NCBI RefSeq assembly: GCF_019683595.1
Contig: NZ_JADGHZ010000009.1
Coordinates: 1-45,519, forward strand
Direction of reading: 5' to 3'
Source: Sphaerobacter sp.
GTDB taxonomy: Bacteria > Chloroflexota > Chloroflexia > Thermomicrobiales > Thermomicrobiaceae
DNA: 45,519 bases
A program made the position numbers and the translations under genes. Positions 5,039 to 45,519 of this stretch are shown piece by piece. The notes beneath the pieces are model-generated. The model worked only from the letters and a program-made list of their open reading frames with translations. It had not been told where the DNA came from and did not search any database. Numbering within the stretch: position 1 is the stretch's first letter; each line of letters opens with the position of its first letter.

Positions 5039-5117
5039 CCCCGCCTCCCGTCACCTCTCACCTGCTCCCACGGGCAACAGAATAACACGGCTCTAGGAGC
5101 GCGGCCCTCACCCCCGA

Positions 5118-5143
5118 CCCCTCTCCCAACGTTGGGAGAGGGG
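5118..5143. repeat. Perfect 26-bp palindrome, repeat family B
   Basis: CCCCTCTCCCAAC followed directly by its exact complement GTTGGGAGAGGGG. A CCCTCACCCCC tract adjoins it. The identical palindrome occurs at 15481-15506 and an enlarged version at 19506-19533. It may serve as a bidirectional terminator or be a mobile REP-type element. Confidence 0.85.
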
Positions 5144-5191
5144 AGCTACGTGAGCGGCCGTACGAGGACGTCCGCGGAGCTACGGCAGTGG

Positions 5192-5305
5192 CGCGTGCCC
5201 GGGGGTAACCCCCCGGGCTGACAACGAAAGCCGGCCGTCGCCGGATTTGGAGTGCGGCGGCCCGAGCCGCCGCTTTGGTACCGCGCGGCCGCAGCCGCGC
5301 CGCTG
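5192..5305. repeat. Variant single copy of repeat family A
   Basis: Begins like other family A copies (GCGTGCCCGGGG, GGGCTGACAA, GAAAGCCGG), but the first hairpin is changed on both arms: the GGCTAAAGCC core becomes GGGTAACCCC, so pairing is kept. It is followed by two more self-complementary blocks, GCGGCGGCCCGAGCCGCCGC and GCGCGGCCGCAGCCGCGC. Confidence 0.65.
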
Positions 5306-5348
5306 TTGGGACGCGAGGTGGGTGGTGCGAAGGATCCCGCATCCCGGC

Positions 5349-5603
5349 GCGTGCCCGGGGCTAAAGCCGCCGGGCTGACAAGGGAAAGCCGGCTGAAGCC
5401 GGCTGGAACGATGCAAGGCTGGCGCCTCGGCATGATGGACCCCGTCGCCCGGCGCGTATACCCACATACAATTCGTCAAACCCCACTAACGCCGGGCAGG
5501 CGCCGGGTGGTGAACGCCGTATTGCCAGAATCTGAGCCCGATTCCTCCAGCCGGCTTCAGCCGGCTTTCGTTGTGAGCCCGGCGGCTTTAGCCCCGGGCA
5601 CGC
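5349..5603. repeat. Paired interspersed repeat, family A (inverted arms)
   Basis: A left arm of about 57 bp (5349-5405) made of two small hairpins, CCGGGGCTAAAGCCGCCGGG and AGCCGGCTGAAGCCGGCT, is matched by an inverted copy at 5547-5603. The roughly 140 bp interior contains a piece whose reverse strand reads GGGTTTGACGAATT, close to GGAGTTTGACGAATT at 31591-31605, so interiors as well as arms are shared between copies. This suggests a non-autonomous mobile element resembling a REPIN or MITE (inference). Confidence 0.75.
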
Positions 5604-5704
5604 GGCAGGGCGCCTAGACTCTCCCGCCACCCTCCCAGGACGTTCACGACGACAGGCGATCATCTCTCAGAAAGCGGGGGCGTTGCCCCCGCTGGCGGCC
5701 CCCA

Positions 5705-15360: not shown

Positions 15361-15480
15361 AGCGATCGAGCGAGGGTGTTGGTTCCGATGGAGCACGGTA
15401 TGTCGTCCAACTCCACAACCTATCCGCCCAACCCAAGCCACGGCAGGAGCGCCGGCATCGTCCGTCCCCGGTAAGCCGCT

Positions 15481-15506
15481 CCCCTCTCCCAACGTTGGGA
15501 GAGGGG
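15481..15506. repeat. Perfect 26-bp palindrome, repeat family B
   Basis: Identical to the palindrome at 5118-5143 and followed by CCGGGGGTGAGGGC. It lies 35 bp beyond the carbamoylase stop codon, a suitable place for a terminator. Confidence 0.85.
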
Positions 15507-15540
15507 CCGGGGGTGAGGGCCGTTCTCAGTCGATGCGGTG

Positions 15541-22564: not shown

Positions 22565-22951
22565 ACCGGAGGGCGGGTGGCGAGAAGACGCGATGAATGC
22601 GGCAAACGCCACGCGCGGGCTGAAGCGCGCCCGGAACCACCGCTCGGTGTTAGGCGTCCACCGTCCAGCCCGTGCCCGGGGCTCAAGCCGCCGGGCTGAA
22701 TAAGGTAAGCCCACTGAAGGGGCTGCGATGGCTACCGACAGGCGGATCCTGTTCGGCACCCCGCAGGGCGCCCAATCCCTAGCCCCTTCAGTGGACTTTG
22801 TCTTGTCAGCCCGGGGCTTGAGCCCCGGGCACGTGCCGACTCCGTTGCGCGGCGGCTCCGATGCGAATCCGATGCGAAATGGTGTGACTCCGCCGGGATT
22901 CCGGCGGAGTCGGAGCGCGACATAAATTTGATCGCTTCGGAGAACGGGCAA
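22565..22951. other. Convergent intergenic region with a paired family A repeat
   Basis: No gene between the gmd and malate synthase stop codons. The main content is the inverted repeat at 22671-22833; near 22883-22912 a GC hairpin CTCCGCCGGGATTCCGGCGGAG follows, which may end transcription from either side. Confidence 0.75.
22671..22833. repeat. Paired interspersed repeat, family A, diverged arms
   Basis: Left arm 22671-22725 and inverted right arm 22781-22833. The first hairpin is CCCGGGGCTCAAGCC, a variant of the CCCGGGGCTAAAGCC in other copies, and the second has become CCACTGAAGGGGCT with its mate AGCCCCTTCAGTGG, so both ends of the element changed together. The interior holds GGCGGATCC, similar to GGATCC flanking other copies. 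Confidence 0.7.
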
Positions 22952-30875: not shown

Positions 30876-31279
30876 AATATCCCCCTCCGCCTCACCAGAA
30901 CCGGTGCGCCGCCCGTGCCCGGCGCGCGCCGCCACGGTACCCGGCCATCCCGGCTTCGGCAAGCCGTTACGGGGTGTCACACAGGTGCCATAATTCGTCG
31001 TGGACATGTCTGGAGAGACCTGACGTCAGGAGCGCTTCGTGAGCTGGGCGCCGCACTACAACGTGGGTCGGCCGTACCCCGAAACCATGTACGCAGCACT
31101 GCACGGCGTGCTGCAGCTCCACCCATGGTGGAACCCAGCCACCACAGTCGCCGCTCGACGCCCTCGGCTGGCTGGCCGCCTTCCTGGCCCATACGCCTGT
31201 GTCCACGGCGTTAACAGACCCCTCATGCTCACGGCCGCCCGCGGAGGGGAATCACAGGCCCCAGAGCGGCTCGTGATAC

Positions 31280-31388: not shown

Positions 31389-31443
31389 CGCCCGGGGCTA
31401 AAGCCGCCGGGCTCACAAGAAAAGCCGGCTAAAGCCGGCTGGG
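31389..31443. repeat. Interspersed repeat family A, single arm
   Basis: CGCCCGGGGCTAAAGCC, CCGGGCTCACAAGA and AAAGCCGGCTAAAGCCGGCTGGG, preceded by TGGTGAAAGGATCCCAG, which matches the sequence before the copy at 5349 (GGTGCGAAGGATCCCGC). The shared flank shows that the element is longer than its hairpins. Confidence 0.7.
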
Positions 31444-31705
31444 AAACGATCTGACGTGCGGCCACCGGAGCCGCCAACTGGGACGGCGCAGAACTGGGAA
31501 ACGAACCATGGCCCACCTATGACACCGGTGATGGTAAGTGGATCCCCGCACACCACCCGGTCGGCTCCCAGTCCTCAGCCGGCTTATGGAGTTTGACGAA
31601 TTAATCCTGCATACCAGCCCGCGCCGTCTCCCGCCCGCCTCAACCGGCGCGTGCGGCTGCCGAACGGATCCGAGATGGGTGGTGGAAAGAGCCCGTGCCG
31701 TGGTC

Positions 31706-31833
31706 GGTGCCCGGGGCTAAAGCCGCCGGGCCCGGGCCGAGCGGCGCGCGGTTAACCCCAAGGTGTGGGCCCGGTCCCCCCGCCCGCTTCAGCCGGCTTT
31801 GCTGGTCAGCCCGGCGGCTTTAGCCCCGGGCAC
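31706..31833. repeat. Paired interspersed repeat family A, short interior
   Basis: Left arm GGTGCCCGGGGCTAAAGCC and GCCGGGC from 31706; right arm from 31790 with CAGCCGGCTTTGCTGGTCAG and GGCGGCTTTAGCCCCGGGCA. The interior is reduced to about 60 bp. GGTGGTGGAAAG before the left arm again matches the flanks of other copies. Confidence 0.7.
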
Positions 31834-32044
31834 ACGCCACGCCGCTGGAGCCGTCACACCACCCGCCGTGGACACCGACGGCAACATGCGACCATCCGAA
31901 CCCGGCCCGTCACTACCACATCCCACCTCAGTTCCCGGCTCCTGCCCGCTCCACAGGTCCAGCCACGCCGCCCACGCACTCCAGCCCGGTCCTGCCCTGC
32001 CCTCTTCATTCGATCCAGGCGTTATGTCTACTCTCGCGCGGAGA

Positions 32045-32185
32045 TCATCCCAAGTACCCGTGCTCCCGCAGCCGCTCCTCACACAGCAGCAACGCCGGCG
32101 CGCTCTGGCCGCCGGCGATGCGGCCGGTGCGGGCCAGGCGCAGGGTCTCCCCTACCGACACGGGCACGGTCTCGATCCGCTCCGT
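32045..32185 (-). pseudogene. Displaced C-terminal fragment of a NUDIX hydrolase gene
   Basis: The last 46 codons and stop of a NUDIX gene, ending LALLLCEERLRQRGYLD in the intact gene and PALLLCEERLREHGYLG here. By eye about 123 of 141 bases match the 3' end of the intact gene at 44090-44677, in the same orientation. Homology stops abruptly upstream of the TERIE codons, and the NUDIX box and N-terminal part are missing, so it cannot make an active enzyme. Together with the intact gene it brackets the 32-44 kb catabolic island. Confidence 0.85.
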
Positions 32186-32342
32186 TTGCGGAGCTCCGTC
32201 GGATCGACGCTCCGGTGCTGCGCAGCCGGTCATGAACGCGGCGCTCGCTGCGGATCGAAGTCCCGCGATCGTCTGTTAGAATGAAACCTATCCACACACC
32301 GTACCCTTAGCGTCGCTGTAGCTATCGTGCTAGGAGGACGAC

Positions 32343-33194
32343 ATGGCATCCAGCGCGCATAGTACGCCCAGCGTTAAGTATCGCTATGGCGAAATGACCT
32401 GGCCCGAAATCCGCGAGGCTGCTGCGGCGGGAAGGGTTGCGATCCTCCCGGTAGCAACCATCGAGGACCACGGGTATCACCTTCCCGTTGATACCGATGT
32501 GCTCCTCTGTACGACCGTCTGCGAGCGCGGGGCGGCGCTCATCCCCGACGAGTGCGTTCTGGTGCCGCCGGTGATCCACGGCTACAGCCCACACCACATG
32601 GACTTCCCAGGCACCTTGAGTATTGATGGGCACACGTTTATCAAGTACGTCCTCGACATCACCAAGAGCCTTGCCCACCATGGCTTCACCCGGATTCTGA
32701 TCGTCAACGGACATGGCAGTAACACGCCTTTCTGCGAGATCATCGCGCGGCTGACGGTGATCGAGACCGCCGGGAACGCGATCGCCATGGCGGTCAATCA
32801 CTGGGGCCTGAACACGGTTCGCGAGGTGGTCGAACAGATCCGAGAATCGGCCCCCGGCGGGATGTCCCACGCCTGTGAGCTGGAGACCTCGATGTATCTG
32901 GCAATCAAGCCGGAGCTCGTGGACATGAGCAAGGCCGTGGCCGAGGTGAACCCCTACCCGACGACCTCGATCCCGGCATGGACCGACCTCGTCGCGGGGC
33001 GGCCACCCACCTCGTCAGCCGTGGCCTGGATGCCCTATTGGAGTACCTTCAGCCAGAGCGGCGTGCGTGGGGACGCGACACTCGCAACGCGGGAGAAGGG
33101 GGAGCAGATCCTCGCTGCTGCTGCGGAGGGATTGGCTGCCCTGGTGCGGGAGCTGCGGCAGCTCGAGGTCGGCCCCCGCGTGGATCACCACTGA
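32343..33194 (+). CDS. Creatininase-family amidohydrolase 1
   Basis: Metal-dependent hydrolase of cyclic or linear amides; members include creatininase, mycofactocin peptidase MftE and an inosose-pathway hydrolase, so substrate is open. 283 residues with ATIEDHGYHLPVDTD (metal Glu41, His43, Asp52), HHMDFPGTLS, LIVNGHGSNTPF (His124) and HACELETSMYL. The Glu two residues after the NGH histidine in true creatininase is Ser here, as in many relatives. ATG with AGGAGG eight bases upstream. First gene inside the island, convergent with the enolase-family gene; a paralogue lies 1.3 kb away. Confidence 0.92.
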   Translation: MASSAHSTPSVKYRYGEMTWPEIREAAAAGRVAILPVATIEDHGYHLPVDTDVLLCTTVCERGAALIPDECVLVPPVIHGYSPHHMDFPGTLSIDGHTFIKYVLDITKSLAHHGFTRILIVNGHGSNTPFCEIIARLTVIETAGNAIAMAVNHWGLNTVREVVEQIRESAPGGMSHACELETSMYLAIKPELVDMSKAVAEVNPYPTTSIPAWTDLVAGRPPTSSAVAWMPYWSTFSQSGVRGDATLATREKGEQILAAAAEGLAALVRELRQLEVGPRVDHH

Positions 33195-33223
33195 TCGCAG
33201 CGCTTCACCGATCCATATGAGCA

Positions 33224-33258
33224 CTGGGCGGGGATGGGGCAACCGCACCCCCGCCCAG
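33224..33258. terminator. Bidirectional hairpin terminator
   Basis: Ten-base stem CTGGGCGGGG/CCCCGCCCAG in the 87 bp gap between two convergent genes. The lack of T-runs leaves the mechanism uncertain, but the position suits both genes. Confidence 0.6.
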
Positions 33259-33281
33259 TTAGTGTCATGCTGGTTGCGACC

Positions 33282-34418
33282 TTATCCGTCGAGAAGGCGC
33301 CGACCGCCGGTGTACCGTGCGACGGCGTCCCAATCCAGCTCGATGCCGAGGCCCGGCGTGTCGGGAATCGGGAGCATGCCGTCCGCGTCGAGCTGCCAGC
33401 GATCGGCGACGATCTCATCGATATAGGCTGAGCCAGTCTTGTATTCGACGAGAGTGGTGTCCGCGAGGGCGCTCGCCAACTGCAAGTCGGCCGCGAGGCC
33501 GATCGCCGTGTTCCAGCCGTGTGGGATCAGCCGGACGCCAAGCTCTTGGGCGAAGAGCCCAATCCGCCGGGACTCGCTCAGCCCGCCCACCTTCGTGGCG
33601 TCTGGCTGGACCACATCGAGCGCGCCGGCCGTCAGCCAGGGGACGAAGCTTTGTCGCCGGGTGAGCACCTCCCCTGCTGCGATGGGAACCGTTGTTGCCT
33701 GGCGCAGGGCAACGTAGCTATCAGGGTCATCGGGGCCGAGCGGTTCTTCAAACCAGGCGACGTCGTAGCTCTCTAGCATCTCGGCCGTTCGGATCGCCCA
33801 TTTCAAGCCCGGTTTCCAGAAGGCATCGCTCCCACCGGCGTCGACCATCAAGAGGGCATCGGGGCCGACGGCGGTGCGGGCCGCCCGGACGATCGCCTCG
33901 TCGAGCTTGCTATCACGGCGACCGAATGGTCCCCAGCCGATCTTGAACGCACGAAACCCCTGCTCTTTGAGTTGCCCCAGATGTTCGGCGAGGCGCTCGG
34001 GTTCCTCCATCAACACCGAGGCGTAGGGTTGCACACGCGTCCGGTAGCGGCCGCCGAGCAGGCGACCCACCGGTTGCCCGGTGACTTTCCCCAGGATGTC
34101 CCACAGGGCGATGTCGATGCCGCTGATCGTATGGGTGATCGAACCGCCCCGACCGAGCCAGAACGTCGTCTGGTGCAGCTTTTCGGTAACGCGCTCCGGC
34201 TCCAAGGCGGATTCCCCCAGGCAGAGGGGGCGGAGTTCCGCCAAGGCGGCCTCGACGAGGGTATCGCTGGAGAACACGCTGCCCAGTCCGGTGACCCCCT
34301 CATCGGTCGTGACCGCGATGAGCGTGTGGAGGCAATCGTCGGGGCCAACCTCGTAGGTCCAACCACTCTCTGGGGTGGCACCTCGGAGCCCGACCGCACG
34401 AATGTCCCGAATCTTCAT
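33282..34418 (-). CDS. Enolase-superfamily (mandelate racemase-like) enzyme
   Basis: Abstracts a proton alpha to a carboxylate, typically a sugar-acid dehydratase or racemase. 378 residues from the ATG at 34418 (GAGGGGG upstream). Metal ligands Asp193 (MVDAGG), Glu224 (WFEEPL) and Glu250 (AAGE); Asp273 and His300 (QPDATKVGG, IPHGWNTAIG) form the usual Asp-His pair. On the other side the KxK motif reads FKIGWGPFG, so only Lys159 of the two lysines is present. N-terminal capping domain complete. It follows creatininase 2 by 52 bp and is probably transcribed with it. Dehydration of a 2-hydroxy acid to a 2-oxo acid would fit the dehydrogenases in the island (inference). Confidence 0.92.
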   Translation of the reverse strand: MKIRDIRAVGLRGATPESGWTYEVGPDDCLHTLIAVTTDEGVTGLGSVFSSDTLVEAALAELRPLCLGESALEPERVTEKLHQTTFWLGRGGSITHTISGIDIALWDILGKVTGQPVGRLLGGRYRTRVQPYASVLMEEPERLAEHLGQLKEQGFRAFKIGWGPFGRRDSKLDEAIVRAARTAVGPDALLMVDAGGSDAFWKPGLKWAIRTAEMLESYDVAWFEEPLGPDDPDSYVALRQATTVPIAAGEVLTRRQSFVPWLTAGALDVVQPDATKVGGLSESRRIGLFAQELGVRLIPHGWNTAIGLAADLQLASALADTTLVEYKTGSAYIDEIVADRWQLDADGMLPIPDTPGLGIELDWDAVARYTGGRRLLDG

Positions 34419-34470
34419 GTGGCCCCCTCTCACACCGTGCACGGCGTCGGCGGTGTGCACCCCGCGTTGA

Positions 34471-35292
34471 CTACCATCGAATGTGTCCTTGTACCTCGCC
34501 GAGGTGCTGGTCGCGCCGCTCATTGATCGGCCACTGCCGCAACTCGTCGACGATGCCGATGAGCTTCGTGACCGCTGCCTCGAAGATGACCTGTCCCTTC
34601 TCCGCCGTCGCCGCCGTGGCATCGCCATGGACCCCGAGGGTCGTCCACCGGCTCCAATAGTCGTTGAAGCGCACAGGGTAGTTCGCGGTGCTGTCCGAAC
34701 TCATATAGGTGCCCATGACGTCGTTGTCGGCGCCAGCCAGCTCCATCCGCACCCGTTCGGGCGCGAGATGAAGGTAGAGGGACGTTTCGAACTCGTCGGC
34801 GTGGGCGACGACCGGCGTCTCCTGTACTTCGGCGAAGGCGTCGAGGGCGAGCGTGATGTAGTGGACCGCCGCGCAGAGCGAGCGCGTCTCCAGGGTAATC
34901 TTCCGCGCCACGATGTCGATCAAGGGCACATTCGACCCGTGCCCATTGACGATCAGCATCTTCTCGAAGCCGTGGTAGGCCACGCTCTTCAGAACGTTGA
35001 CGCAGAACGCGATGAAGGTTTCGGGTTCGATGTGGATCGTCCCGGGGAAATCGATGTGGTGGAGGTTCAGGCCGTAGGGGATGGGTGGCAGGACGAGCAC
35101 GCGATCGGCAGCGCGGCGACCGACCTCAAGGCAGATGGATTCGGCCAGGAAGAGATCGACGTCGAGGGGGAGGTGCCGCCCATGCTGTTCCGTCGACCCG
35201 GTCGGCAGGATGACCACTTTCTTCATTGCGATCGCGTCGTTCATCTCGGGCCAGGTGAGCCGGTTGTACCGGTATTCGGTCGTTGCGGACAT
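34471..35292 (-). CDS. Creatininase-family amidohydrolase 2
   Basis: 273 residues from the ATG at 35292, with GGGAGGAGG upstream. Metal motif GSTEQHGRHLPLDVD (Glu35, His37, Asp46), HHIDFPGTIHI, LIVNGHGSNVPLID and HADEFETSLYL. It keeps the classic TEQHG, where the paralogue at 32343 has IEDHG, so the two copies probably differ in substrate or form a mixed oligomer. First gene of a minus-strand pair with the enolase-family gene, driven by a promoter whose -35 overlaps that of the divergent transporter operon. Confidence 0.92.
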   Translation of the reverse strand: MSATTEYRYNRLTWPEMNDAIAMKKVVILPTGSTEQHGRHLPLDVDLFLAESICLEVGRRAADRVLVLPPIPYGLNLHHIDFPGTIHIEPETFIAFCVNVLKSVAYHGFEKMLIVNGHGSNVPLIDIVARKITLETRSLCAAVHYITLALDAFAEVQETPVVAHADEFETSLYLHLAPERVRMELAGADNDVMGTYMSSDSTANYPVRFNDYWSRWTTLGVHGDATAATAEKGQVIFEAAVTKLIGIVDELRQWPINERRDQHLGEVQGHIRW

Positions 35293-35439
35293 CGCGTCGA
35301 TCCTCCTCCCGCCGCTCGGGTCCGCCACCAGGGCAGATTCGACCGGCCGAAAAGACGACGGTCGTCACCGGAACGGTGTGTCACCGCCGCTTGTGCGATT
35401 CCGCCGATTGCGGAGCCTCAGGGGTTCATGAATGGTTGA

Positions 35440-35468
35440 ATGATACCGAAGATTTGGGTTATTGACAA
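35440..35468 (-). promoter_or_regulatory. Promoter of the creatininase 2 / enolase-family pair
   Basis: Minus strand TTGTCA (35463-35468), 17-base spacer, TATCAT (35440-35445), five of six matches in each hexamer. Its -35 shares five bases with the -35 of the opposite promoter. A TTCATGAA palindrome lies next to the -10 at 35425-35432. Confidence 0.6.
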
Positions 35469-35490
35469 CGAATTGGCCGGACCTTATACT
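35462..35490 (+). promoter_or_regulatory. Near-consensus promoter of the island transporter operon
   Basis: TTGACA (35462-35467), 17-base spacer, TATACT (35485-35490). The hexamers and spacing are identical to those of the other solute-binding gene's promoter at 10428-10456. Leader of about 78 nt to the ATG at 35575. Confidence 0.72.
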
Positions 35491-35574
35491 GGATCCTAAC
35501 GTCTCACAAACCAATACGTACCGTCCGTTCGGCTCATCCGGACGATAGGGTGATGAGTTCGCGGAGGAGGAGTC

Positions 35575-37281
35575 ATGGCTGGGGTGCCTGACCGCAGACT
35601 GGACGACCGGCGTTTTCCGCGACGGACGATGCTCAAGGGCGGACTCCTGGTGCTCAGTGGCGGGATCACAGGCGGCCTCCTGGCTGCCTGTGGGCAAAGT
35701 CCGAGCCAGGCCCAGCCGACCGCGACCACCGCTGACTCAACCTCCTCCGGCACGACACCTGCCGCCGCCACCCAACCCGCAAGTGGCTCATCATCCGCGT
35801 CGCCGACGGCGAGCGGGTCCGCGACGGGAGCCGGGGAGCCGAAACCGGGCGGGATCCTGCAGGGGGCGTTTGAGCTCGATCCTCTGAGCCTCGACCCCCA
35901 CACGAACTCGAATTTCTCGTCCCTCCAGGGCTTCGAACATTGCTATGAGAGCCTGACGACGTACGACGAGGAGATGAACGTCATCCCTGCGCTTGCCGAG
36001 CAATGGGAGATCGCGGAGGACGGCCTGACCTACACGTTCACCTTGCGCCCCGACGTGAAGTTCCATAACGGGAAGACGATGACCGGGGATGACGTCAAGT
36101 ACAGCATTGAGCGTGTCCTCAACCCAGAAACGGCCTCGCCCTGGCGGAGCTGGCTCTCCGCGATCAACGAGATCACCGTCGTGGAGCCGCTGCTGGTTGA
36201 GATGAAGCTCAGCGAACCATACCCGGATCTTCTCAGTTCGTTCGCCGCGATGCGGGCGTCCGCGATCATTCCCGAGGGCCTGGCGGAGGAAGTCAACCTG
36301 CAGACCACGGCAGTGGGGACCGGGCCGTTCAAGCTCGTCGAGTATGTGCCGCAGGATCACATCACCTATGAACGCTTCGACGAGTATTGGGGCCAGCCCC
36401 TCCCCTACCTGGACGGGATGGTCTTCAAGATCTTGAGCGAAGAGAACGTGCGGCTGGCCGCGCTGCAGGCGGGGCAGATCAAGTATGCGGCGATCAGTGC
36501 CCAGGGCGCGGAACAGCTCAAGAACGCGAGCAACATTCAGGTGCTGCAGAGTCCGTATGCCTGGGTGGATCTAACCTATGTCAATGTTTCCCGCCCGCCA
36601 CTGAATGATGCGCGTGTTCGCCGCGCGATGCGCATGGCGGTCAATACGAACGAGATGATCCAGAAGGGCGTCTTCGGCGCCGGTGTCCCCTCCGGCCCCG
36701 TGCCCACCGGCTACGGTGACTGGTACCTGGATCCTGAGTCGCTTCCCTACCTCGAACCAGACATCGAAGGCGCGAAGGCGCTGCTCGCCGAGGCCGGCTA
36801 TGCCGGCGAACGGCTGGTGATCAACTGTTCCCCGCAGTATCCCGATTTCGTCGCCAACGCGGTGGTGATGCAACAGGCCTTCCAGGCCATTGGGATGAAC
36901 GTCGAGATCAACCAGATGGAGTGGGGCGCGCAGAACGCGGCCTATAACGCCAAGGATTATGACCTCAGCAACTCGGCGAACACCTTCCGCCCCGGCCCCG
37001 ATGGTTACATCTACGCCTACTTCCACACCGACGGGAACCTCAACTCGGGCTATTCCAATCCCGAGCTGGACACCCTCATCGAACAGGCTCGGTCGACCAG
37101 CGACCACGACGAGCGCGTGAGACTCTACACCCAGATTCAGCAAATGCTGCTCGAGGAAAGCCCCGACTTCTGGTGGTATGTCAAGTACAACATCGAGGCG
37201 GTGGCGAACGACCTCCAAGGGTACGTGCAGTCGTTCACGGGGCGCCGGATGTTCCTCAAACAAGCCTGGCTCAACGAGTAG
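35575..37281 (+). CDS. Solute-binding lipoprotein, family 5 (DppA-like), Tat-type signal
   Basis: Binds the substrate of the second peptide-type importer. 568 residues: twin-arginine motif RRTMLK (16-21), hydrophobic stretch, lipobox LAAC with Cys39, a Ser/Thr/Ala-rich linker to about 88, then the family 5 fold with LDPHTNSNFSS, LRPDVKFHNGKTMTGDDVKYS, and VRRAMRMAVNTNEMI. ATG with GGAGGAGG upstream. The Tat-type signal differs from the Sec-like signal of the other copy at 8547. First gene of a plus-strand operon (binding protein, two permeases, hydroxyacid dehydrogenase, ThDP enzyme, Ldh2 dehydrogenase). Confidence 0.94.
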   Translation: MAGVPDRRLDDRRFPRRTMLKGGLLVLSGGITGGLLAACGQSPSQAQPTATTADSTSSGTTPAAATQPASGSSSASPTASGSATGAGEPKPGGILQGAFELDPLSLDPHTNSNFSSLQGFEHCYESLTTYDEEMNVIPALAEQWEIAEDGLTYTFTLRPDVKFHNGKTMTGDDVKYSIERVLNPETASPWRSWLSAINEITVVEPLLVEMKLSEPYPDLLSSFAAMRASAIIPEGLAEEVNLQTTAVGTGPFKLVEYVPQDHITYERFDEYWGQPLPYLDGMVFKILSEENVRLAALQAGQIKYAAISAQGAEQLKNASNIQVLQSPYAWVDLTYVNVSRPPLNDARVRRAMRMAVNTNEMIQKGVFGAGVPSGPVPTGYGDWYLDPESLPYLEPDIEGAKALLAEAGYAGERLVINCSPQYPDFVANAVVMQQAFQAIGMNVEINQMEWGAQNAAYNAKDYDLSNSANTFRPGPDGYIYAYFHTDGNLNSGYSNPELDTLIEQARSTSDHDERVRLYTQIQQMLLEESPDFWWYVKYNIEAVANDLQGYVQSFTGRRMFLKQAWLNE

Positions 37282-37322
37282 GCGAAGACGATCCCTTCAG
37301 AGTGAGGGGAGACGAAGCGCGA

Positions 37323-38270
37323 ATGCATCACGTGATCCGGCGCCTGGTCGCGACGATCGTGACGTTGTTCGGTGTCTCCATCTTGATCTTCGGCCTGGTG
37401 CGCCTGCTCCCGGGGGACATCGCCACCATCATCGCGGGTTCGGAAGGGCAACTCTCTGCCGAGCAGCGGGAAGCCGTCCTGCGAGAATTCGGACTGGATC
37501 GGTCCCTGCCGGTTCAGTACGGCCTGTGGATCTGGAATATGGTGCAGGGGAACTTTGGCTGGTCCTTCCGGAACGGCGAGCCGGTGGCCACGTTGCTCTT
37601 CTCGCGCCTGCCCCTGACCATTGAGCTGGCCGTCCTCTCGGTGGCGCTTTCCTCGGTGTTCGGCCTGATCTTCGGAGTCATCGCGAGCATCAGCCAGCGG
37701 AAAGGCGTAAAGCTCGGCACGCAAGTGTTCGGATTGCTCGGGCTCTCCGTGCCCGACTTCTGGATCGGGGTGCTGTTGATCATTGCGGCCTCGCAGATCT
37801 TCCACTGGCTGCCGCCACTCACCTACGCCACGCTCTGGAAGCAACCCTTGGCGAATCTGCAGCAGATGGTCTTGCCCGTGCTCGCCCTCTCGTTCGGGCT
37901 GGGGGCGGTGACCATGCGCATGACGCGTTCGTCCATGCTCGAGGTTCTGGGTGAGGAGTTCGTCAAGGTGGGGCGGGCCAAAGGGCTTTCCGAATCGGCC
38001 ATTCTCCTCCGCTATGCCCTTCGCAACGCCTTCATCCCGATCGTGACCATCCTCGGGTTGCAGATGGGGGTGCTCTTGGGGGGCGTGGTGATTATCGAGC
38101 AAGTCTTCGGTCTGCCGGGACTCGGTTGGACGCTGCTCAACGGGGTCTATCAGCGCGACTATCCGGTGGTGCAAGGGGCGGTGATGTTGTTCGCCGTCGG
38201 CTTCGCGTTGGTCAACCTGCTCGTCGATATCGTCTACACCTACCTCGATCCGAGGATCCGACATGTTTGA
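37323..38270 (+). CDS. ABC transporter permease (DppB-like)
   Basis: 315 residues from the ATG at 37323; an open frame continues upstream but only overlaps the binding-protein gene. Starts MHHVIRRLVATIVTLFGVSI, then PVQYGLWIWNMVQGNFGWS, about six helices, the coupling loop KVGRAKGLSESAILLRYALR and IIEQVFGLPGLGWTLLNGV. GGGGAG lies about 11 bases before the start. It follows the binding protein by 41 bp and overlaps the next permease gene by 8 bp. Confidence 0.93.
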   Translation: MHHVIRRLVATIVTLFGVSILIFGLVRLLPGDIATIIAGSEGQLSAEQREAVLREFGLDRSLPVQYGLWIWNMVQGNFGWSFRNGEPVATLLFSRLPLTIELAVLSVALSSVFGLIFGVIASISQRKGVKLGTQVFGLLGLSVPDFWIGVLLIIAASQIFHWLPPLTYATLWKQPLANLQQMVLPVLALSFGLGAVTMRMTRSSMLEVLGEEFVKVGRAKGLSESAILLRYALRNAFIPIVTILGLQMGVLLGGVVIIEQVFGLPGLGWTLLNGVYQRDYPVVQGAVMLFAVGFALVNLLVDIVYTYLDPRIRHV

Positions 38271-39159
38271 TGGAGTGGCCCAGAGCAAGCCCATCGTCAT
38301 TCATGAGCCAACGGCCCGCCGGCGGACGCTGGCCCAGTGGGGCCGGGCCGTCCGGCAGAGTCCGGCAACGATGATCGGGGCGGTGCTGGTGATCGGCCTG
38401 GTGCTGGTGGCGCTCGCCGCGCCGTTGATCGCGCCGTACCCACCGGCTGCACAGATCGACCTGCCCCTGCTCCGTCCGGGCCAGGGCTACTGGCTGGGGA
38501 CCGACGAGTTCGGGCGCGATGAGCTGAGCCGCCTGGTGTATGGCGCCCGCGTCTCGCTCTACGTCGGCTTCCTCTCGGTCACGATCGCGTTGGCGCTGGG
38601 CGCGACCTCCGGCATCGTCGCCGGCTACTACGGCGGGCACATCGACAATGTGATCATGCGCCTGATGGATGTCCTCTTTTCGCTCCCGGCGATCGTCCTC
38701 GCGATCGCCATCACCGCGATCCTGGGGCCCAGCCTGACGAACGCGCTCATCGCGATTGGGCTCGTGTATGCGCCGCGGTTCGCCCGCGTCACCCGCGGTC
38801 CGACGTTGACCGTGGCACAGTTGCCCTACATCGAAGCCGCTCGCACGATCGGGGTATCGAACCGCACGATCATGCTGCGCCACGTGCTGCCGAACATCTC
38901 AGCCCCGCTCATCGTGCAAATCACGATCTCGCTCTCGACGGCGATCCTGACCGAGGCCGCATTGAGTTTTCTCGGTCTCGGAACCCAGCCGCCGACTCCC
39001 TCGTGGGGACTAATGCTGAGCACCGCTCGCCAATACATGCTGCTTGACGCCTGGATTGCAGTGCTGCCGGGCGCGGCGATCGCACTCGCTGTGCTCGGAT
39101 TCAATCTACTCGGTGACGGTCTGCGCGACATCCTCGACCCGCGCATCCGGACACTCTGA
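38263..39159 (+). CDS. ABC transporter permease (DppC-like)
   Basis: 298 residues, second permease of the island importer. After a polar N-terminus: SPATMIGAVLVIGLVLVAL, WLGTDEFGRDELSRLVYGAR, coupling loop YIEAARTIGVSNRTIMLRHV and the closing SFLGLGTQPPTPSWGLML and LLGDGLRDILDPR. Start ATG inside the end of the preceding gene (8 bp overlap) with AGGA just upstream, so translation is coupled. No ATPase gene follows; the next genes are metabolic enzymes. Confidence 0.93.
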   Translation: MFDGVAQSKPIVIHEPTARRRTLAQWGRAVRQSPATMIGAVLVIGLVLVALAAPLIAPYPPAAQIDLPLLRPGQGYWLGTDEFGRDELSRLVYGARVSLYVGFLSVTIALALGATSGIVAGYYGGHIDNVIMRLMDVLFSLPAIVLAIAITAILGPSLTNALIAIGLVYAPRFARVTRGPTLTVAQLPYIEAARTIGVSNRTIMLRHVLPNISAPLIVQITISLSTAILTEAALSFLGLGTQPPTPSWGLMLSTARQYMLLDAWIAVLPGAAIALAVLGFNLLGDGLRDILDPRIRTL

Positions 39160-39234
39160 CGCCAACAGTCGCAGCCGGATGCGCGCATCGATTGGCAGCG
39201 GCCGGACACGGGCCGCCGAGAGGAGCATCAGGTT

Positions 39235-40233
39235 ATGTCGTTCCGCATCATCCGCACGACCGTGTTCCCCCACGCGCCCGAATCGACCCTGCCTGAGGAG
39301 CGCCATATTCTGGGGGATGTCGATGCCGAGGTCGTGCCCGTGACGGTGCAGAGCCCGGACGAGCTCGCCGAGGCGGCACGGGGCGCCGATGGAGTCATCA
39401 CCAGCAACGTTCCCGTGACCGAAGCGGTGATCAACGCGATGAACCCGTGCCGCGGCATCGTCACGGCCAGCGTGGGCTTCGACCACATTGATCTCGAGAC
39501 GGCCACCGCGCGTGGCATTCCGGTCGCCCATGTCCCCGACTTTTGCTCTCGTGAGGTCGCCGATCACACAATCGGGCTATTGCTCGCCTGTGTGCGCAAG
39601 ATCACCGAGCTCAACAATGCCCTGCACGCTGGTATCTGGGATCGAACCGCCCTCTCGCCGATGATGCCGATCTATGGAAAAACGCTGGGGCTGATCGGTC
39701 TGGGACGCATCGGCCGAGAGGTAGCCCGCCGCGCAGCCGCGTTCGACCTCCGCCTCATCGCACATGACCCGTATGTCTCGCAAGAGGTAGCGGACCGATA
39801 CGGGGTCGAACTCGTGTCGTTGGAGCAGCTCCTTCGCGAGAGTCACTTCGTCTCGATCCATACCCCGCTCACCCCTGAGACACGTCATCTCCTGAGTGAC
39901 CCACAGTTCGCGCTGATGAAGGAGAGTGCGCTGGTCTTCAACACCGCCCGTGGGCCGGTGATTGATGAAGCTGCCTTGATTCGTGCCCTGGAATCGGGCC
40001 GGATCGCCGGTGCGGGCCTGGACGTCTTCGAGCAGGAGCCGGTCGCGCCCGATAACCCGCTCTTGGGTATGGCGAATGTGGTGGTGACGCCCCATGCGGG
40101 TGGGTATTCCGAGGAGTCGATCCGGACGGTCCGGCGCCTGGCCGCGGAGGAAATGGCCCGCATGCTCCGTGGCCAGCAGCCACGCAATTTGGTCAATCGG
40201 GAGCTCATTGCGCGCTGGCAGACCGCTGGGTAG
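39235..40233 (+). CDS. D-2-hydroxyacid dehydrogenase, NAD-dependent
   Basis: Interconverts a D-2-hydroxy acid and a 2-oxo acid; family of phosphoglycerate and C-terminal-binding-protein-like dehydrogenases. 332 residues, with no ACT domain, so not a regulated SerA. GLGRIG at 155-160 and Asp178 (HDPY) indicate NAD preference; the catalytic triad is Arg239 (NTARGPVID), Glu268 (FEQEP) and His287 (TPHAGG). ATG with AGGAG upstream. The leader GAGAGGAGCATCAG is almost the same as that before the ThDP gene (GAGAGGAGCACCAG). It may act on the same 2-oxo acid as the Ldh2 enzyme downstream but with opposite stereochemistry (inference). Confidence 0.92.
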   Translation: MSFRIIRTTVFPHAPESTLPEERHILGDVDAEVVPVTVQSPDELAEAARGADGVITSNVPVTEAVINAMNPCRGIVTASVGFDHIDLETATARGIPVAHVPDFCSREVADHTIGLLLACVRKITELNNALHAGIWDRTALSPMMPIYGKTLGLIGLGRIGREVARRAAAFDLRLIAHDPYVSQEVADRYGVELVSLEQLLRESHFVSIHTPLTPETRHLLSDPQFALMKESALVFNTARGPVIDEAALIRALESGRIAGAGLDVFEQEPVAPDNPLLGMANVVVTPHAGGYSEESIRTVRRLAAEEMARMLRGQQPRNLVNRELIARWQTAG

Positions 40234-40380
40234 CCGCCGCACGTGAACGAGCTGCGGAGGATCACGCATCTCTGCATCGCCGTTCACGGATTGCCGGCCG
40301 GGATGGCGCAGGATCCGGCCGGTGACCGGCTTCTCCGTCGTCCGTGATCTGTGCCACTGGCATCCTGAGAGGAGCACCAG

Positions 40381-41991
40381 ATGCAAATGTCCGGTGGGCA
40401 AGCGATTGTCGAGACCTTACGCGCGGGCGGCGTCGATACGGTCTTCGGCATCCCCGGTGTGCACAACCTGGCGATCTACGACGCCCTCTCCCGAACACCG
40501 GAGATAACCCACATCGTGTGTCGCCATGAACAGGGGGCTGGGTTTGCGGCCGATGGCTATGCCCGGACGTCGGGGAAGCCTGGCGTGTTCATTACCACCA
40601 CGGGGCCGGGTGCCACCAATGCGTTCACGGCGCTTGGCGAGGCCTGGAGTGAGTCATCCCCGGTCTTGCATCTCGCCTCTCAGTTGGCGACCAACCTCAT
40701 TGACGCCGAACGCGGGGTCGTCCATGAACTGGTCGATCAGACGGGAACCTTCCGCAACGTGACGCGGATCAATAAGAGCGTGCGCGAACTGGCGCGCGTG
40801 TCGCCCGCCGTCGCGGAAGCGCTGACGGCGATTCAAAGTGGTCGGCCGCGTCCCGCCTACCTCGACTTCCCAGAAGACATCTTGAATGCCGTCGATGACG
40901 TGACCGTGTGCTCACCCGCGGCCCCGGAGATCCCCGAACCGGATCCCGCACTCGTACGACGGGCCGCCGAGCGGCTCGGGCGGGCGCGTCGGCCGGTCAT
41001 TCTCGCGGGTGCGGGCGTCCATCGGTCCGGAGCGTGGGTAGAGCTCCTGCGGGTGGCGGAGGCGCTGCAGGCGCCGGTGTTCGAGACGGCGCCGGGACGC
41101 GGGGCGATTCCGAATGACCACCCCCTGTCGGTCGGCGGCCGTTGGACCGGTGATCCGCGGCTGAGCCGCTTCTTGAGCGATTCCGACGTGCTCCTGGCCG
41201 TTGGCACGCGGCTCGGTGGTGGTTCGACCGCCAACTGGACGCTGGAGCTCCCGCCGCTGATTCATCTCGACGTGGATCCGGACGTCATCAACCTGAACTA
41301 CCCGGCTGATGTGGCGATCGTCGGTGATGCGCGGGTGTCGCTCGGGCAGCTCTATGAGTCCCTCATGGATGGGGGCGCACGCTCCGATGGTCAGTGGGCG
41401 GCTACGGCCCGTGGGCTGGCTGAGCAGGTCGACGCCGAGATGCGCGCGGCGCATCCGATCGCGATGGGTGTGATTGATAGCCTGCGGGCAGCGTTGGATC
41501 GTGATGCCATCGTCACCAACGACAGCCTGATCCAGTACTGGACGGCCCGGCACTTCCCGGTTTACACGCCGCGCTCCTATCACATCCCGTGGATCTACGG
41601 CACGCTGGGAACCGCACTCCCCTTCGCGATCGGTGCCGCCGTCGCCGCGCCCGATCGGCAGGTCGTGGCCATCGGCGGTGACGGCGCGTTCATGTTCACC
41701 TGTGGTGAGCTGGCGACCGCCATCCAAGCCGGGGCGAACGTTGTCTGCGTCGTCTGCAACGACCAGGGCTACAACGCCATGCGTCGCTATCAACGGCTGC
41801 GCTACGGCGATCGAATCTTCGCCAGTGATCTGGTGACCCCCGATTTCGCGGCGCTCGCCGAGAGTTTCGGTGCGCTCGGCATCCGGCTGCAAGCACCCGA
41901 CGAGCTTGAGGCGGCGCTCCGCACCGCGCTCGCCGCCAAGCGGGTTGCGGTCATCGACCTCCCGCTCTCGCTCGACCTGCCCTGGCGTTAG
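40381..41991 (+). CDS. ThDP-dependent decarboxylase/ligase (acetolactate synthase-like)
   Basis: Thiamin-diphosphate enzyme acting on a 2-oxo acid, either decarboxylating it or joining it to an acceptor. 536 residues: catalytic Glu50 in CRHEQGAGFAADGYAR, the FITTTGPGATN segment, a central domain, and the ThDP site GDGAFMF (433-439) to Asn460 in VVCNDQGYN. Close to acetolactate synthase large subunit and benzoylformate decarboxylase-type proteins; there is no adjacent small subunit, so valine synthesis is unlikely. ATG with AGGAG six bases upstream. The 147 bp gap before it contains a CCGGCCGG repeat pair (40294-40301, 40315-40322) that could form a hairpin. Substrate not determinable. Confidence 0.9.
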   Translation: MQMSGGQAIVETLRAGGVDTVFGIPGVHNLAIYDALSRTPEITHIVCRHEQGAGFAADGYARTSGKPGVFITTTGPGATNAFTALGEAWSESSPVLHLASQLATNLIDAERGVVHELVDQTGTFRNVTRINKSVRELARVSPAVAEALTAIQSGRPRPAYLDFPEDILNAVDDVTVCSPAAPEIPEPDPALVRRAAERLGRARRPVILAGAGVHRSGAWVELLRVAEALQAPVFETAPGRGAIPNDHPLSVGGRWTGDPRLSRFLSDSDVLLAVGTRLGGGSTANWTLELPPLIHLDVDPDVINLNYPADVAIVGDARVSLGQLYESLMDGGARSDGQWAATARGLAEQVDAEMRAAHPIAMGVIDSLRAALDRDAIVTNDSLIQYWTARHFPVYTPRSYHIPWIYGTLGTALPFAIGAAVAAPDRQVVAIGGDGAFMFTCGELATAIQAGANVVCVVCNDQGYNAMRRYQRLRYGDRIFASDLVTPDFAALAESFGALGIRLQAPDELEAALRTALAAKRVAVIDLPLSLDLPWR

Positions 41992-42015
41992 ATAGGGGTC
42001 AGAACGGAGAGACGC

Positions 42016-43092
42016 ATGACCACCGTCTGGTGCGCGGCTGAGCCGCTTGAGACGTTCGTCCGCGAAACCTGTTGTGCCCTCGGTACCCCGGAGGACATCG
42101 CGGCCGAGGTTGCCCATCATCTCGTACGCGCCAACCTGTCCGGTCACGATTCGCACGGCGTCCTTCGCCTGCCGTGGTATGCGAGCCAGATCAAGAACGG
42201 TGAGCTCATCCCGCAGGCTCGCCCAACCATCGTCCGGGAAACGGCGGGGACCGCCCTGTTCGATTCTGGGTTCGGGTTCGGGCATTACGCCACCCGGGTG
42301 GTGCTCGACTGGACGCTTGCGCGCGCCAAGCAACAGGGCGTGGCCAGCGCCGCGATCCGCAATTTCACGCATATCGGTCGTTTGGGGGAGTATGCCGAGC
42401 ATGGAGCAGAGCAAGGCCTGGTCACGCTGGTCACCATCGGGACGGCGGGCCCCGACAATGGTTGGGTTGCGCCCTTCGGTGGCCGTGGCCGCTTCTTGGG
42501 GACCAACCCCTGGGCGATCGGCGTCCCCGCTGCTGGTCGACTTCCTATGGTCTACGACGCCGCCACCTCGACGATCGCCGAGGGCAAGGTGCGCCAGGCC
42601 CAGGCGAAGGGATTGCCCCTGCCGCCTGGGAGTATCCTCGATCAGCACGGCGCGCCAAGCGATGTACCCGGTGATCTGTACGACGGTGGAATGCTCCTGC
42701 CCCTGGGTGGATCCGTCGCGGGGCACAAGGGATATGGATTTGCGCTCGCGGCGGCGCTCCTCGGCGGTTTGGCCATGAGCGCGGACGGTGCGCGAGATCC
42801 CGATGACCCCGCCATGCAGAACATCAGTGGTGTGTTGGTGCTTGTGCTTGATCCCGCGGCCTTTGGCAGCGCTGCACACTTCGCGGAACGGGCGGGGGCG
42901 GTCCTCGATGCCGCCACGCGGGTGGAACCGGTCCCGGGCGTCGAACGCGTCCTCGTCCCGGGTGAGCCGGAGGCGCAGGCCCGCAGCGAGCGTCACCGGT
43001 CCGGGATCCCAATCCCGGAGCCCGTCTGGCGGGAACTCGAGCAACTGGCAGCTCAGTTCGCGGTGGAGCTGCCGGAACACCGCGTGGAGTGA
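42016..43092 (+). CDS. Ldh2-family malate/lactate/sulfolactate-type dehydrogenase
   Basis: NAD(P)-dependent 2-hydroxyacid dehydrogenase of the non-Rossmann Ldh2/MDG family, which includes malate, ureidoglycolate, (R)-sulfolactate and 2,3-diketogulonate enzymes. 358 residues: GHDSHGVLRLP (His44, Asp45, His47), NFTHIGRLGEYAE with active-site His119, GTNPWAIGVPA and GHKGYGFALA. ATG with GGAGAG upstream, 24 bp after the ThDP gene, last clear member of the operon. The pairing with a D-hydroxyacid dehydrogenase in one operon is notable. Confidence 0.93.
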   Translation: MTTVWCAAEPLETFVRETCCALGTPEDIAAEVAHHLVRANLSGHDSHGVLRLPWYASQIKNGELIPQARPTIVRETAGTALFDSGFGFGHYATRVVLDWTLARAKQQGVASAAIRNFTHIGRLGEYAEHGAEQGLVTLVTIGTAGPDNGWVAPFGGRGRFLGTNPWAIGVPAAGRLPMVYDAATSTIAEGKVRQAQAKGLPLPPGSILDQHGAPSDVPGDLYDGGMLLPLGGSVAGHKGYGFALAAALLGGLAMSADGARDPDDPAMQNISGVLVLVLDPAAFGSAAHFAERAGAVLDAATRVEPVPGVERVLVPGEPEAQARSERHRSGIPIPEPVWRELEQLAAQFAVELPEHRVE

Positions 43093-43208
43093 CGTCGGGC
43101 GCCCTGGCACTCCCGCCGTATCGGCCTTCCGCTCCTCAGGCTCCGTCGGCTACGATGCGGGTGGCTACGGTGGGGGCCATCATGTGCATCGTATCGGAAA
43201 GGACGATT

Positions 43209-43946
43209 GTGAGCGAGACACTCGGAGAGCGCCAGCTATCGGGCGACGTGGTCGACCCACTTCCACCAGGGCTCTACCCGGCGCGGGTTCCGCTTGACGG
43301 GCGCTACGCACGGGTGGAGCCGTTGCATCCGATCGACCACGCACAGGAGTTGTGGGACGCGTCGCACGACGCGCCAACGGACGTGACCGATCGGATCTGG
43401 GACTACCTGCCGTACGGCCCATTCCCCAGCTTCGACGCGTTTCGGGCCTGGCTACGAACCTGCTCGGCATCGGCCGATCCGACCTTCTTCGCGATTCGCG
43501 ACGGGCGGACCGGCAAAGCCGCGGGGATGGCGAGCTATTTGAACATCCGCCCCAGCGACGGCGTCATCGAGATCGGCCACATCTGGCTGGCACCCTCGCT
43601 ACAGCGGAGCCGGGAGGCGACCGAGGCCCTCTACCTCATGATCCGACATGCGATCGACGATCTCGGCTATCGCCGGGTGGAGTGGAAATGTAACGCGCTC
43701 AATGAGCCTTCACGCCGGGCAGCCGCCCGACTCGGCTTCGCCTACGAAGGGACCTTCTATCGGCACGTGATCGTGAAGGGGCGGAACCGCGACACCGCGT
43801 GGTTCTCGATCCTCGCCGAGGAGTGGCCGCCCATCCGGGCGAACTTCGAGGCCTGGCTGGCACCGGAGAACTTTGATGCGGACGGCCGGCAGATCCAGTC
43901 GCTCGGGGAGATGAACCGGGCACTACGCGAGGGCCACCCCCGCTGA
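43209..43946 (+). CDS. GNAT-family N-acetyltransferase
   Basis: Acetylates an amine using acetyl-CoA. About 245 residues from the GTG at 43209, chosen for AAAGGA upstream; ATGs at 43155 and 43182 in frame are alternatives. Resembles the RimJ/RimL-type GNAT group: a start with LDGRYARVEPLHPIDHAQELW, LPYGPFPSFDAFRAWL, then the acetyl-CoA region VIEIGHIWLAPSLQRSREATEAL and the closing RVEWKCNALNEPSRRAAARLGF and YEGTFYRHVIVKGRNRD. It lies 117 bp after the Ldh2 gene and may be on the same transcript. Protein or small-molecule target unknown. Confidence 0.9.
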   Translation: MSETLGERQLSGDVVDPLPPGLYPARVPLDGRYARVEPLHPIDHAQELWDASHDAPTDVTDRIWDYLPYGPFPSFDAFRAWLRTCSASADPTFFAIRDGRTGKAAGMASYLNIRPSDGVIEIGHIWLAPSLQRSREATEALYLMIRHAIDDLGYRRVEWKCNALNEPSRRAAARLGFAYEGTFYRHVIVKGRNRDTAWFSILAEEWPPIRANFEAWLAPENFDADGRQIQSLGEMNRALREGHPR

Positions 43947-44089
43947 GGGCCGCCGAGCCCCTTCGATTGCGTTATGTCCGCCACGGTCAGGCGGGAGAGC
44001 CCTGCCGTCCCGGATGAGCTGCTACACCGTCACACCGGAGCGGTCGCTGCAACGCCGACGGCATGCTTCGCGGACCGGTGGTGCCGGCG

Positions 44090-44677
44090 TCAGTCGAGGT
44101 AGCCGCGCTGCCGCAGCCGCTCCTCGCACAGCAGCAGCGCCAGCGCGCTCTGCCCGTCGGCGATGCGGCCGGTGCGGGCCAGGTGCAGGGCCTCCCCCAC
44201 CGGCACGGGCAGGATCTCGATCCGCTCCGTCGCCTCGTGCCGCGGCGTCTGACCCAACTCCACCCCGAGTGCCAGGAACACGTGGCACTCCTGGGCGCTG
44301 TGCGTCACGCTCGGGTGGAACGAGCCGATCCGCTCAATCGTGGCGCAGGTGCCGCCGACCTCCTCCAGCAGTTCCTCCCGCGCCAGGTCCGCCAGCGGCA
44401 CCCCCGGCCGGTCGTGCGTCCCCCCAGCCGGAACCTCCAGACACCAGGCATCCACCGGGTAGCGGTACTGGCGGATCAGCACCACCCGCCCGTCATCGGT
44501 CACCGGCACCACGAACACACCGGGCGGCTGGTCGAGATACGTGTAGGTGATCCGCTCATCGCCGATGGCGATATCGTCCTGCCGCAGGCGGAGCCAGGGC
44601 GTCGTAAAGGGCCGGCGCGTCGCCACCGTCCGCCAGCCCAGCCCCCGCGCCACCGGCTTGTCGGTCGTCTCAGTCAT
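44090..44677 (-). CDS. NUDIX hydrolase, ADP-ribose pyrophosphatase-like
   Basis: Cleaves a nucleoside diphosphate linked to another group, most likely ADP-ribose or ADP-sugar. 195 residues with the ADPRase layout: N-terminal strand region, VVLIRQYRYPVDAWCLEVPAGG, the Nudix helix LADLAREELLEEVGG (95-109) and the late LPVPVGEALHLARTGRIADG. The Nudix box is loose: one residue longer than GX5E, with Val at the first conserved Glu and Glu at the conserved Arg, though the central EExxEE-like metal cluster ELLEE is kept. ATG start. Its 3' end is repeated at 32045-32185. Confidence 0.88.
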   Translation of the reverse strand: MTETTDKPVARGLGWRTVATRRPFTTPWLRLRQDDIAIGDERITYTYLDQPPGVFVVPVTDDGRVVLIRQYRYPVDAWCLEVPAGGTHDRPGVPLADLAREELLEEVGGTCATIERIGSFHPSVTHSAQECHVFLALGVELGQTPRHEATERIEILPVPVGEALHLARTGRIADGQSALALLLCEERLRQRGYLD

Positions 44678-44746: not shown

Positions 44747-45519
44747 TCACACCTCCCACACCCGCAACTCCGCGAATCCCGACGGTCGCAGCCGCTCAAA
44801 CTCCTCCTGCCGCACCTTCATGTACCGCCATCGCGTGCCCGTCAATGCCGTCGCGTTCTCGCACCACAGCCGCGCCGCTTGGTCTTTGAACGTCACCTCG
44901 GGCGTCTCCACACCCTTCGTCTCGATCAGCCAGTGCTCCCCGTCCGTCAGTCTGGCCACGAAATCCGGATAGTAGTACCGCAGGTTCGCCGACCCGTCCG
45001 TATACTCGATACTGAACCCGAATTGCTCGGGTAGCTTCGCGAAGGCCGCCACATCCTCCGTCTCGTCCAACCACCGCGCGAACGCCTGCTCGAAGCGGTT
45101 TTCACACGGCACCAGGTTGAACACGCACTTCTTCGCCGCATACGTCGCTCGCGAGTACGGAAACGGATCGGAATCAGAAAGCGCCCGCGCCGGAGCCAGC
45201 AACTCCGGCTCGACCGTCTCGATCAGAACATCCTTGAGTGCCGTGCGGAACGCCCGGCGCACTGCCTCTGCCGCCATGTTTCGGCTCATCGCACGCAGCA
45301 CAGCCGGCTGCTCAAGATCCACTCGCCGCCCGAACGCCTTCTCTTCAAAGAATGCACGCACCTTCGGCACCAGATGCGCGAACTGTGACGGCAGCTTTAA
45401 GTCGTTCGCGATCAACTGCGCGTAGTACCCGATCACCTCCTGCGGCGTCTGGGGATCGGGAACGCTGTACTCTGCATCGACCACCTTCTCATCAGTCAGG
45501 ATGTCGTAGCCCTCATACC
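44747..45519 (-). CDS. Type III restriction enzyme subunit R, C-terminal part (runs off the window)
   Basis: Only the 3' end lies inside the window; the frame is open without a stop to base 45519, reading YEGYDILTDEKVVDAEY at the edge. The segment matches the end of type III restriction (Res) helicase-nuclease subunits: KKCVFNLVPCENRFEQAFARW, then the nuclease core YYYPDFVARLTDG and WLIETKG, a PD-(D/E)xK site, and QAARLWCENATAL. Res works with a Mod methyltransferase, cutting unmethylated foreign DNA at a distance from its site. The helicase part and any mod gene would lie to the right. A 69 bp gap with CGTCATGCGTCA-like repeats separates it from the NUDIX gene. Confidence 0.88.
   Translation of the reverse strand, partial: YEGYDILTDEKVVDAEYSVPDPQTPQEVIGYYAQLIANDLKLPSQFAHLVPKVRAFFEEKAFGRRVDLEQPAVLRAMSRNMAAEAVRRAFRTALKDVLIETVEPELLAPARALSDSDPFPYSRATYAAKKCVFNLVPCENRFEQAFARWLDETEDVAAFAKLPEQFGFSIEYTDGSANLRYYYPDFVARLTDGEHWLIETKGVETPEVTFKDQAARLWCENATALTGTRWRYMKVRQEEFERLRPSGFAELRVWEV

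Follow-up and report, generated by a model that had tools for sequence, protein, structure and literature searches.

The window analysed here is a stretch of 45,519 nt from Sphaerobacter sp. (NZ_JADGHZ010000009.1, GCF_019683595.1), whose 3.89-Mb genome we call G000. It was compared with a second Sphaerobacter (G001, two contigs) and a third one, the MAG Sphaerobacter sp. Bu17 (G002). Towards the right end of the window lies an intact NUDIX hydrolase gene of housekeeping type, and on the far side of a block of catabolic and transport genes the 3' end of this gene occurs a second time, as an orphan fragment in the same orientation (Table 1). The two copies form a direct repeat with 123 of 141 positions identical, while the runner-up ungapped placement of the 141-mer reaches 68/141 in the window and 69/141 in 20 shuffled windows; a whole-genome search found these two copies only. 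On the gene side the edge of the repeat is sharp, with homology ending at 44230/32185. Past the stop codon, local alignment of the two NUDIX ends in G000 gave no statistically detectable homology. The orphan is an in-frame C-terminal piece in G000 and carries an internal TAG in G001.

Table 1. Features of the NUDIX locus in window coordinates.
Feature	Position	Strand	Remarks
Orphan (displaced) NUDIX 3' end	32045..32185	-	46 codons and stop, pseudogene-like; 87% to 44090-44230
Island left end: creatininase 1 upstream/promoter region	32186..32342		hairpin at repeat edge; no NUDIX similarity; alignable full length in G001
Creatininase-family amidohydrolase 1	32343..33194	+	PF02633, E 5e-69
Enolase-superfamily (MR/MLE) sugar-acid dehydratase-like	33282..34418	-	PF13378/PF02746; start codon assumed, within longer ORF 33282-34628
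Creatininase-family amidohydrolase 2	34471..35328	-	PF02633, E 2e-69
ABC solute-binding protein, family 5 (SBP_bac_5)	35575..37281	+	PF00496
ABC permease, OppB/DppB type	37323..38270	+	PF00528; start codon assumed, within longer ORF 37173-38270
ABC permease, OppC/DppC type	38263..39159	+	PF00528, PF12911
D-2-hydroxyacid dehydrogenase	39235..40233	+	PF02826, PF00389
TPP-dependent enzyme (acetolactate synthase/2-oxoacid decarboxylase superfamily)	40381..41991	+	PF02775/02776/00205
Ldh_2 (malate/L-lactate dehydrogenase family)	42016..43092	+	PF02615; 3' part survives in G001, aligned from window 42506
GNAT acetyltransferase, right-most island gene	43089..43946	+	PF13302; intact in G001 (L024:486-1223)
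Intact NUDIX hydrolase gene, insertion target	44090..44677	-	PF00293; G002 ortholog 69% aa, same locus
Segment missing from G001	32385..42505		10.1 kb; breakpoints inside creatininase 1 and Ldh_2

Some smaller features accompany the repeat. An imperfect inverted repeat (CGATCCGCTCCG / CGGAG..CGGATCG, 32174-32207) lies right on the inner boundary of the orphan, in G001 as well, and may mark the breakpoint. The 10-mer GCGTTATGTC is shared at 32019-32028 and 43969-43978, downstream of both NUDIX ends, and is suggestive at most. As a continuation of the repeat beyond the stop it was rejected: shuffles rival the local alignments (40/400), and the motif has six further occurrences, of which at least three seem to fall within genes. 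GTTATGTC is also present about 80 nt beyond the NUDIX stop of G002 and is not significant by alignment. Palindromic REP-like repeat families (e.g. GCCCGGGGCTAAAGCCGCCGGGC) occupy intergenic positions at 5100-5610, 15478-15523, 22662-22855 and 31390-31850, and each of the three Sphaerobacter genomes contains many related intergenic repeats. Directly upstream of the NUDIX gene, at 44747-45484, G000 alone has a type III restriction endonuclease-like gene; the M29 peptidase gene stands there in G001.

The block between the two NUDIX ends, referred to as the island, encodes enzymes and transporters by its Pfam assignments. A plausible reading of these families is that an amide or conjugate is taken up, from which the creatininase-type hydrolases would free sugar or hydroxy acids; the dehydratase and the L- and D-specific dehydrogenases may then dehydrate or oxidise these acids, and the TPP enzyme may cleave the resulting 2-oxo acid. 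The island encodes no ABC ATPase. Among its annotated genes there is neither a tyrosine nor a serine integrase or recombinase, and the intergenic gaps, at most about 250 bp, leave no room for one or for a remnant. Excisionase and transfer genes are likewise missing from the island, as are relaxase, coupling and type IV secretion genes. Phage structural, replication or regulatory genes were not found either: a PHROGs scan of five island proteins matched generic enzymes only, and Pfam returned enzymes and transporters for the remaining ones. The first-pass annotation, made from the sequence of the window, had described the same-orientation repeat of about 87% identity with sharp ends, the catabolic and transport genes between its copies, and an insert without visible integrase; each of these observations was borne out.

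Composition and distribution set the island apart from its surroundings. Its GC content is 0.647, against 0.688 in the window to its left, and the GC3 of its genes ranges from 0.76 to 0.86, against 0.92-0.94 in M20, ALDH, malate synthase and NUDIX. Low GC3 is not unique to the island, as a UvrD-like ORF (0.70) and other ORFs of the window are low too. For the dehydratase, strong matches (E<=1e-120) were sought in 21 genomes of its own family and 40 from the other families of the order; they occur in 1/21 and 16/40, respectively. Its identity to the matches in the other families is 64-73% at the amino acid level, that of creatininase 2 is 71-79%, and the two genes adjoin each other in G036, G023 and G029. 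Since malate synthase likewise shows 67-75% in the same inter-family comparison, identity alone is no proof of transfer, and it is mostly distribution and composition that point to a foreign origin. The UvrD-like helicase with its N-terminal ParE-type domain (25226-27493) is a separate case: its four-fold divergence to G001 is 0.020, compared with 0.15-0.17 in its neighbours, which looks like a recent exchange between species or a separate acquisition.

A comparison of G000 with its sister species G001 seems at first to offer the empty site. In G001 the orphan (C2:544442-544582) and the NUDIX gene (546356-546940) are separated by 1.8 kb, with flanks as in G000. At the junction, the first ~14 codons of creatininase 1 are joined out of frame to Ldh_2 from about codon 164, with microhomology of at most a base or so. 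Such an out-of-frame fusion inside two genes marks a later deletion in the G001 lineage, and we therefore rejected the 10.1-kb difference as the original insertion. Both species share the orphan with its left flank (82% identity), the upstream region of creatininase 1, and the GNAT and NUDIX genes; moreover, the orphan is cut at the same base in both, and the non-NUDIX sequence upstream of it can be aligned between them. The whole arrangement is thus older than their split. Four-fold divergence between the two is 0.198 for the Ldh_2 remnant, 0.138 for GNAT, 0.167 for NUDIX and 0.145-0.172 for M20, ALDH and malate synthase; as the island remnants diverge like NUDIX and the flanks, they appear to have been inherited vertically ever since.

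Within G001 the repeat has a history of its own. Its orphan differs from the intact copy at 0/85 positions in the first 85 nt and at 13/47 in the rest (Fisher p 4e-7), a partial homogenisation for which gene conversion is the simplest explanation. Beyond the NUDIX gene, on the side away from the island, G001 continues with the M29 peptidase, a TipAS-type regulator and an rRNA operon, while the M29 homolog of G000 sits at the end of another contig. About 576 bp next to M20 in G001, which also align to G002, are absent from G000 at 31142-31146.

The state without an island becomes visible in the third genome. In G002, contig C21 carries ALDH and M20 and is colinear with G001 to about position 3868. 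The 19-bp CCTTGCGGATAACTGTCCT follows at C21:3919-3937 and recurs on the NUDIX contig C71 (JASBVL010000043.1) at C71:9700-9718; its 16-bp centre has these two sites only in G002 and was not found in G000 or G001 with one mismatch allowed. Beyond it, C21 encodes phage proteins with a primase zinc ribbon, DUF3987 and a tape measure assignment. On C71, 12 bp separate it from the 3' end of a tyrosine integrase gene on its prophage side, and the NUDIX stop is ~560 bp away. Because the centre occurs at just two sites, we interpret the contig ends as the opposite ends of a single prophage between M20 and NUDIX (L048:3919-15690 plus L025:9700-10770, att core CCTTGCGGATAACTGTCCT). Apart from this prophage, M20 and NUDIX would be neighbours, a join that we infer across two MAG contigs. 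The joined flanks comprise M20, ~1.5 kb and NUDIX, with neither island nor orphan and with a single NUDIX gene at the locus. From M20 start to NUDIX stop the distance in G002 is ~1.52 kb across the core, and M20 and orphan lie 1.47 kb apart in G001; these matching distances place the orphan at the original site of the NUDIX end. On the opposite flank of NUDIX, G002 has DNA homologous to that of G001 after an extra ~4.2 kb. The prophage itself was rejected as the carrier of the island, because ~560 bp separate its att core from the NUDIX stop and because it carries unrelated genes. The first-pass annotation had named an ancestral, vertically inherited island with both NUDIX sequences as a reading that would overturn its own; this description fits the G000/G001 pair, whose arrangement predates their split, and not the genus.

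How old is the duplication of the NUDIX end? Over the better 132 nt of the repeat (89.4% identity), orphan and intact end of G000 differ at 14/132 positions (10.6%). As a yardstick, the ~16% four-fold divergence between the species corresponds to about 8% per lineage, to which ~2-4% are added on the constrained copy. The observed value is close to this expectation, which places the duplication shortly before the split of G000 and G001, and owing to the gene conversion in G001 the estimate is a minimum. Which of the two copies continues the original end is a matter of conflicting sites: at about four positions of its extreme 3' end the NUDIX gene of G002 has the bases of the orphans, and at two positions slightly further upstream those of the intact copies, while that of the more distant G024 ends like the intact copy.

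The island-free arrangement of G002, the position of the orphan, the composition and the phyletic pattern support an acquired island at the NUDIX 3' end, and we regard insertion there in the ancestor of G000 and G001 as very probable. On this reading, a catabolic island of ~11.9 kb, obtained by horizontal transfer, would have entered the chromosome at this 3' end once the ancestral lineage had separated from that of G002, so that one flank has the complete NUDIX gene and the opposite one the 141-bp displaced 3' end. The route would most likely be a circular element whose attachment site held a copy of the NUDIX 3' end, similar to e14 at icd, so that we infer a circular intermediate and site-specific recombination; the recombinase would have acted in trans or been lost before the species split. 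Thereafter the island was passed on vertically; G001 lost 10.1 kb of it internally, and part of the repeat there was probably converted.

Overall we lean towards this site-specific route, with less assurance than towards the insertion itself. Against it stands that the 141-bp homology delimits no attachment core. A search of viral contigs for an attP carrying the NUDIX 3' end returned none, and the small stretches read beside the NUDIX relatives in G024 and G025 contain no integrase. The first-pass annotation had proposed that an element integrated at the gene's 3' end and supplied a replacement end. Its acquired island and displaced end hold up, whereas a recombinase finds no counterpart in an insert lacking both integrase and remnant, and the supply of the intact end by the element is not upheld by the conflicting sites of G002 and G024. 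A broader generalisation, in which the surroundings of NUDIX are a recurrent landing site in Sphaerobacter, where catabolic blocks without integrase use a recombinase in trans and the tail of a protein gene as attachment site, seems improbable to us.

The main rival to the site-specific route is the same insertion without a dedicated integrase, and we consider it a possible though clearly less favoured account. Here, DNA carrying the catabolic genes and the NUDIX 3' end of a close relative would have entered by homologous or illegitimate recombination, either as circular or linear DNA through a single Campbell-type crossover in the captured NUDIX end or by an end-joining that duplicated the target. 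An island free of integrase genes fits this account well, and so do copies that were nearly identical at the species split, which makes the donor of the 3' end a member of the same lineage. In addition, the copies evidently recombine, as the uneven differences in G001 illustrate, and these genomes show rearrangements on either side of NUDIX. What the account explains less readily is a repeat placed exactly at the 3' end of a gene that stays whole, an outcome favoured by integrase-type elements and not by random capture.

An old tandem duplication with deletion had been considered the main alternative in the first-pass annotation; we now hold it to be quite unlikely. In this account the segment spanning the NUDIX 3' end and the island would have been duplicated, and the second copy of the island would then have been lost. 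It would account for direct repeats in the same orientation, and the REP-like repeats beside the orphan could promote rearrangement. However, the island would already have to adjoin NUDIX, and thus to predate the genus and to have been lost in G002, while G002 and 18 other genomes of the family have no strong dehydratase match (G001, which lost the gene, is set apart). A second deletion ending at the stop codon is required as well, and the foreign composition of the island speaks against the duplication too. A derivation of the orphan from a complete second NUDIX gene, the other refuting possibility named at first, can practically be dismissed: that the orphan is an in-frame C-terminal piece in G000 is countered by the truncation at the same base in both species next to alignable non-NUDIX sequence, and by the one NUDIX gene at the locus in G002.

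With an acquired island at the NUDIX 3' end as the preferred reading, the three congeneric genomes represent the states before (G002), after (G000) and during decay (G001). Together they let a catabolic island of Thermomicrobia be followed from its gain at the tail of a protein gene to its partial loss. They are also a caution against relying on two genomes: the large gap between G000 and G001 arose by secondary deletion, and the original insertion is visible only via the third genome.

Among known systems, a whole target gene, a displaced 3' fragment, a foreign insert and an uninterrupted relative form the signature by which integrative islands are mapped (PMC4383910). In the window, the complete NUDIX gene and its displaced 3' fragment flank the insert in the same orientation, the insert combines foreign composition with a patchy distribution, and G002, as joined across its two MAG contigs, would provide the uninterrupted relative. 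As in Islander-type tDNA islands, the regenerated target lies on one side, the displaced same-orientation fragment on the other and the island between them; in contrast to these, the target is a protein gene, and the Islander integrase filter would reject the island (PMC4383910). The integrase being a defining feature that the insert lacks, we do not file the island in the integrase-bearing family. The mutT ICEs of Streptococcus also use a Nudix hydrolase gene as insertion target, but with serine integrase triplets that disrupt the gene and leave 2-8 bp repeats (PMC4701971), whereas NUDIX is kept whole here and the repeat measures 141 bp. The arrangement is also that of prophage e14 of E. coli, which, as summarised in PMC6379469 (citing Hill et al. 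1989), displaces 163 bp of the icd 3' end and supplies the replacement. Both elements are inserted at the tail of a protein gene and leave homologous direct repeats as well as a pseudo-3' end; e14 differs as a prophage with its own integrase from an island of catabolic genes only, with its 141-bp repeat and no integrase (PMC6379469). We thus see in the island a familiar kind of genomic island, here without integrase and mostly lost again in the sister species G001.
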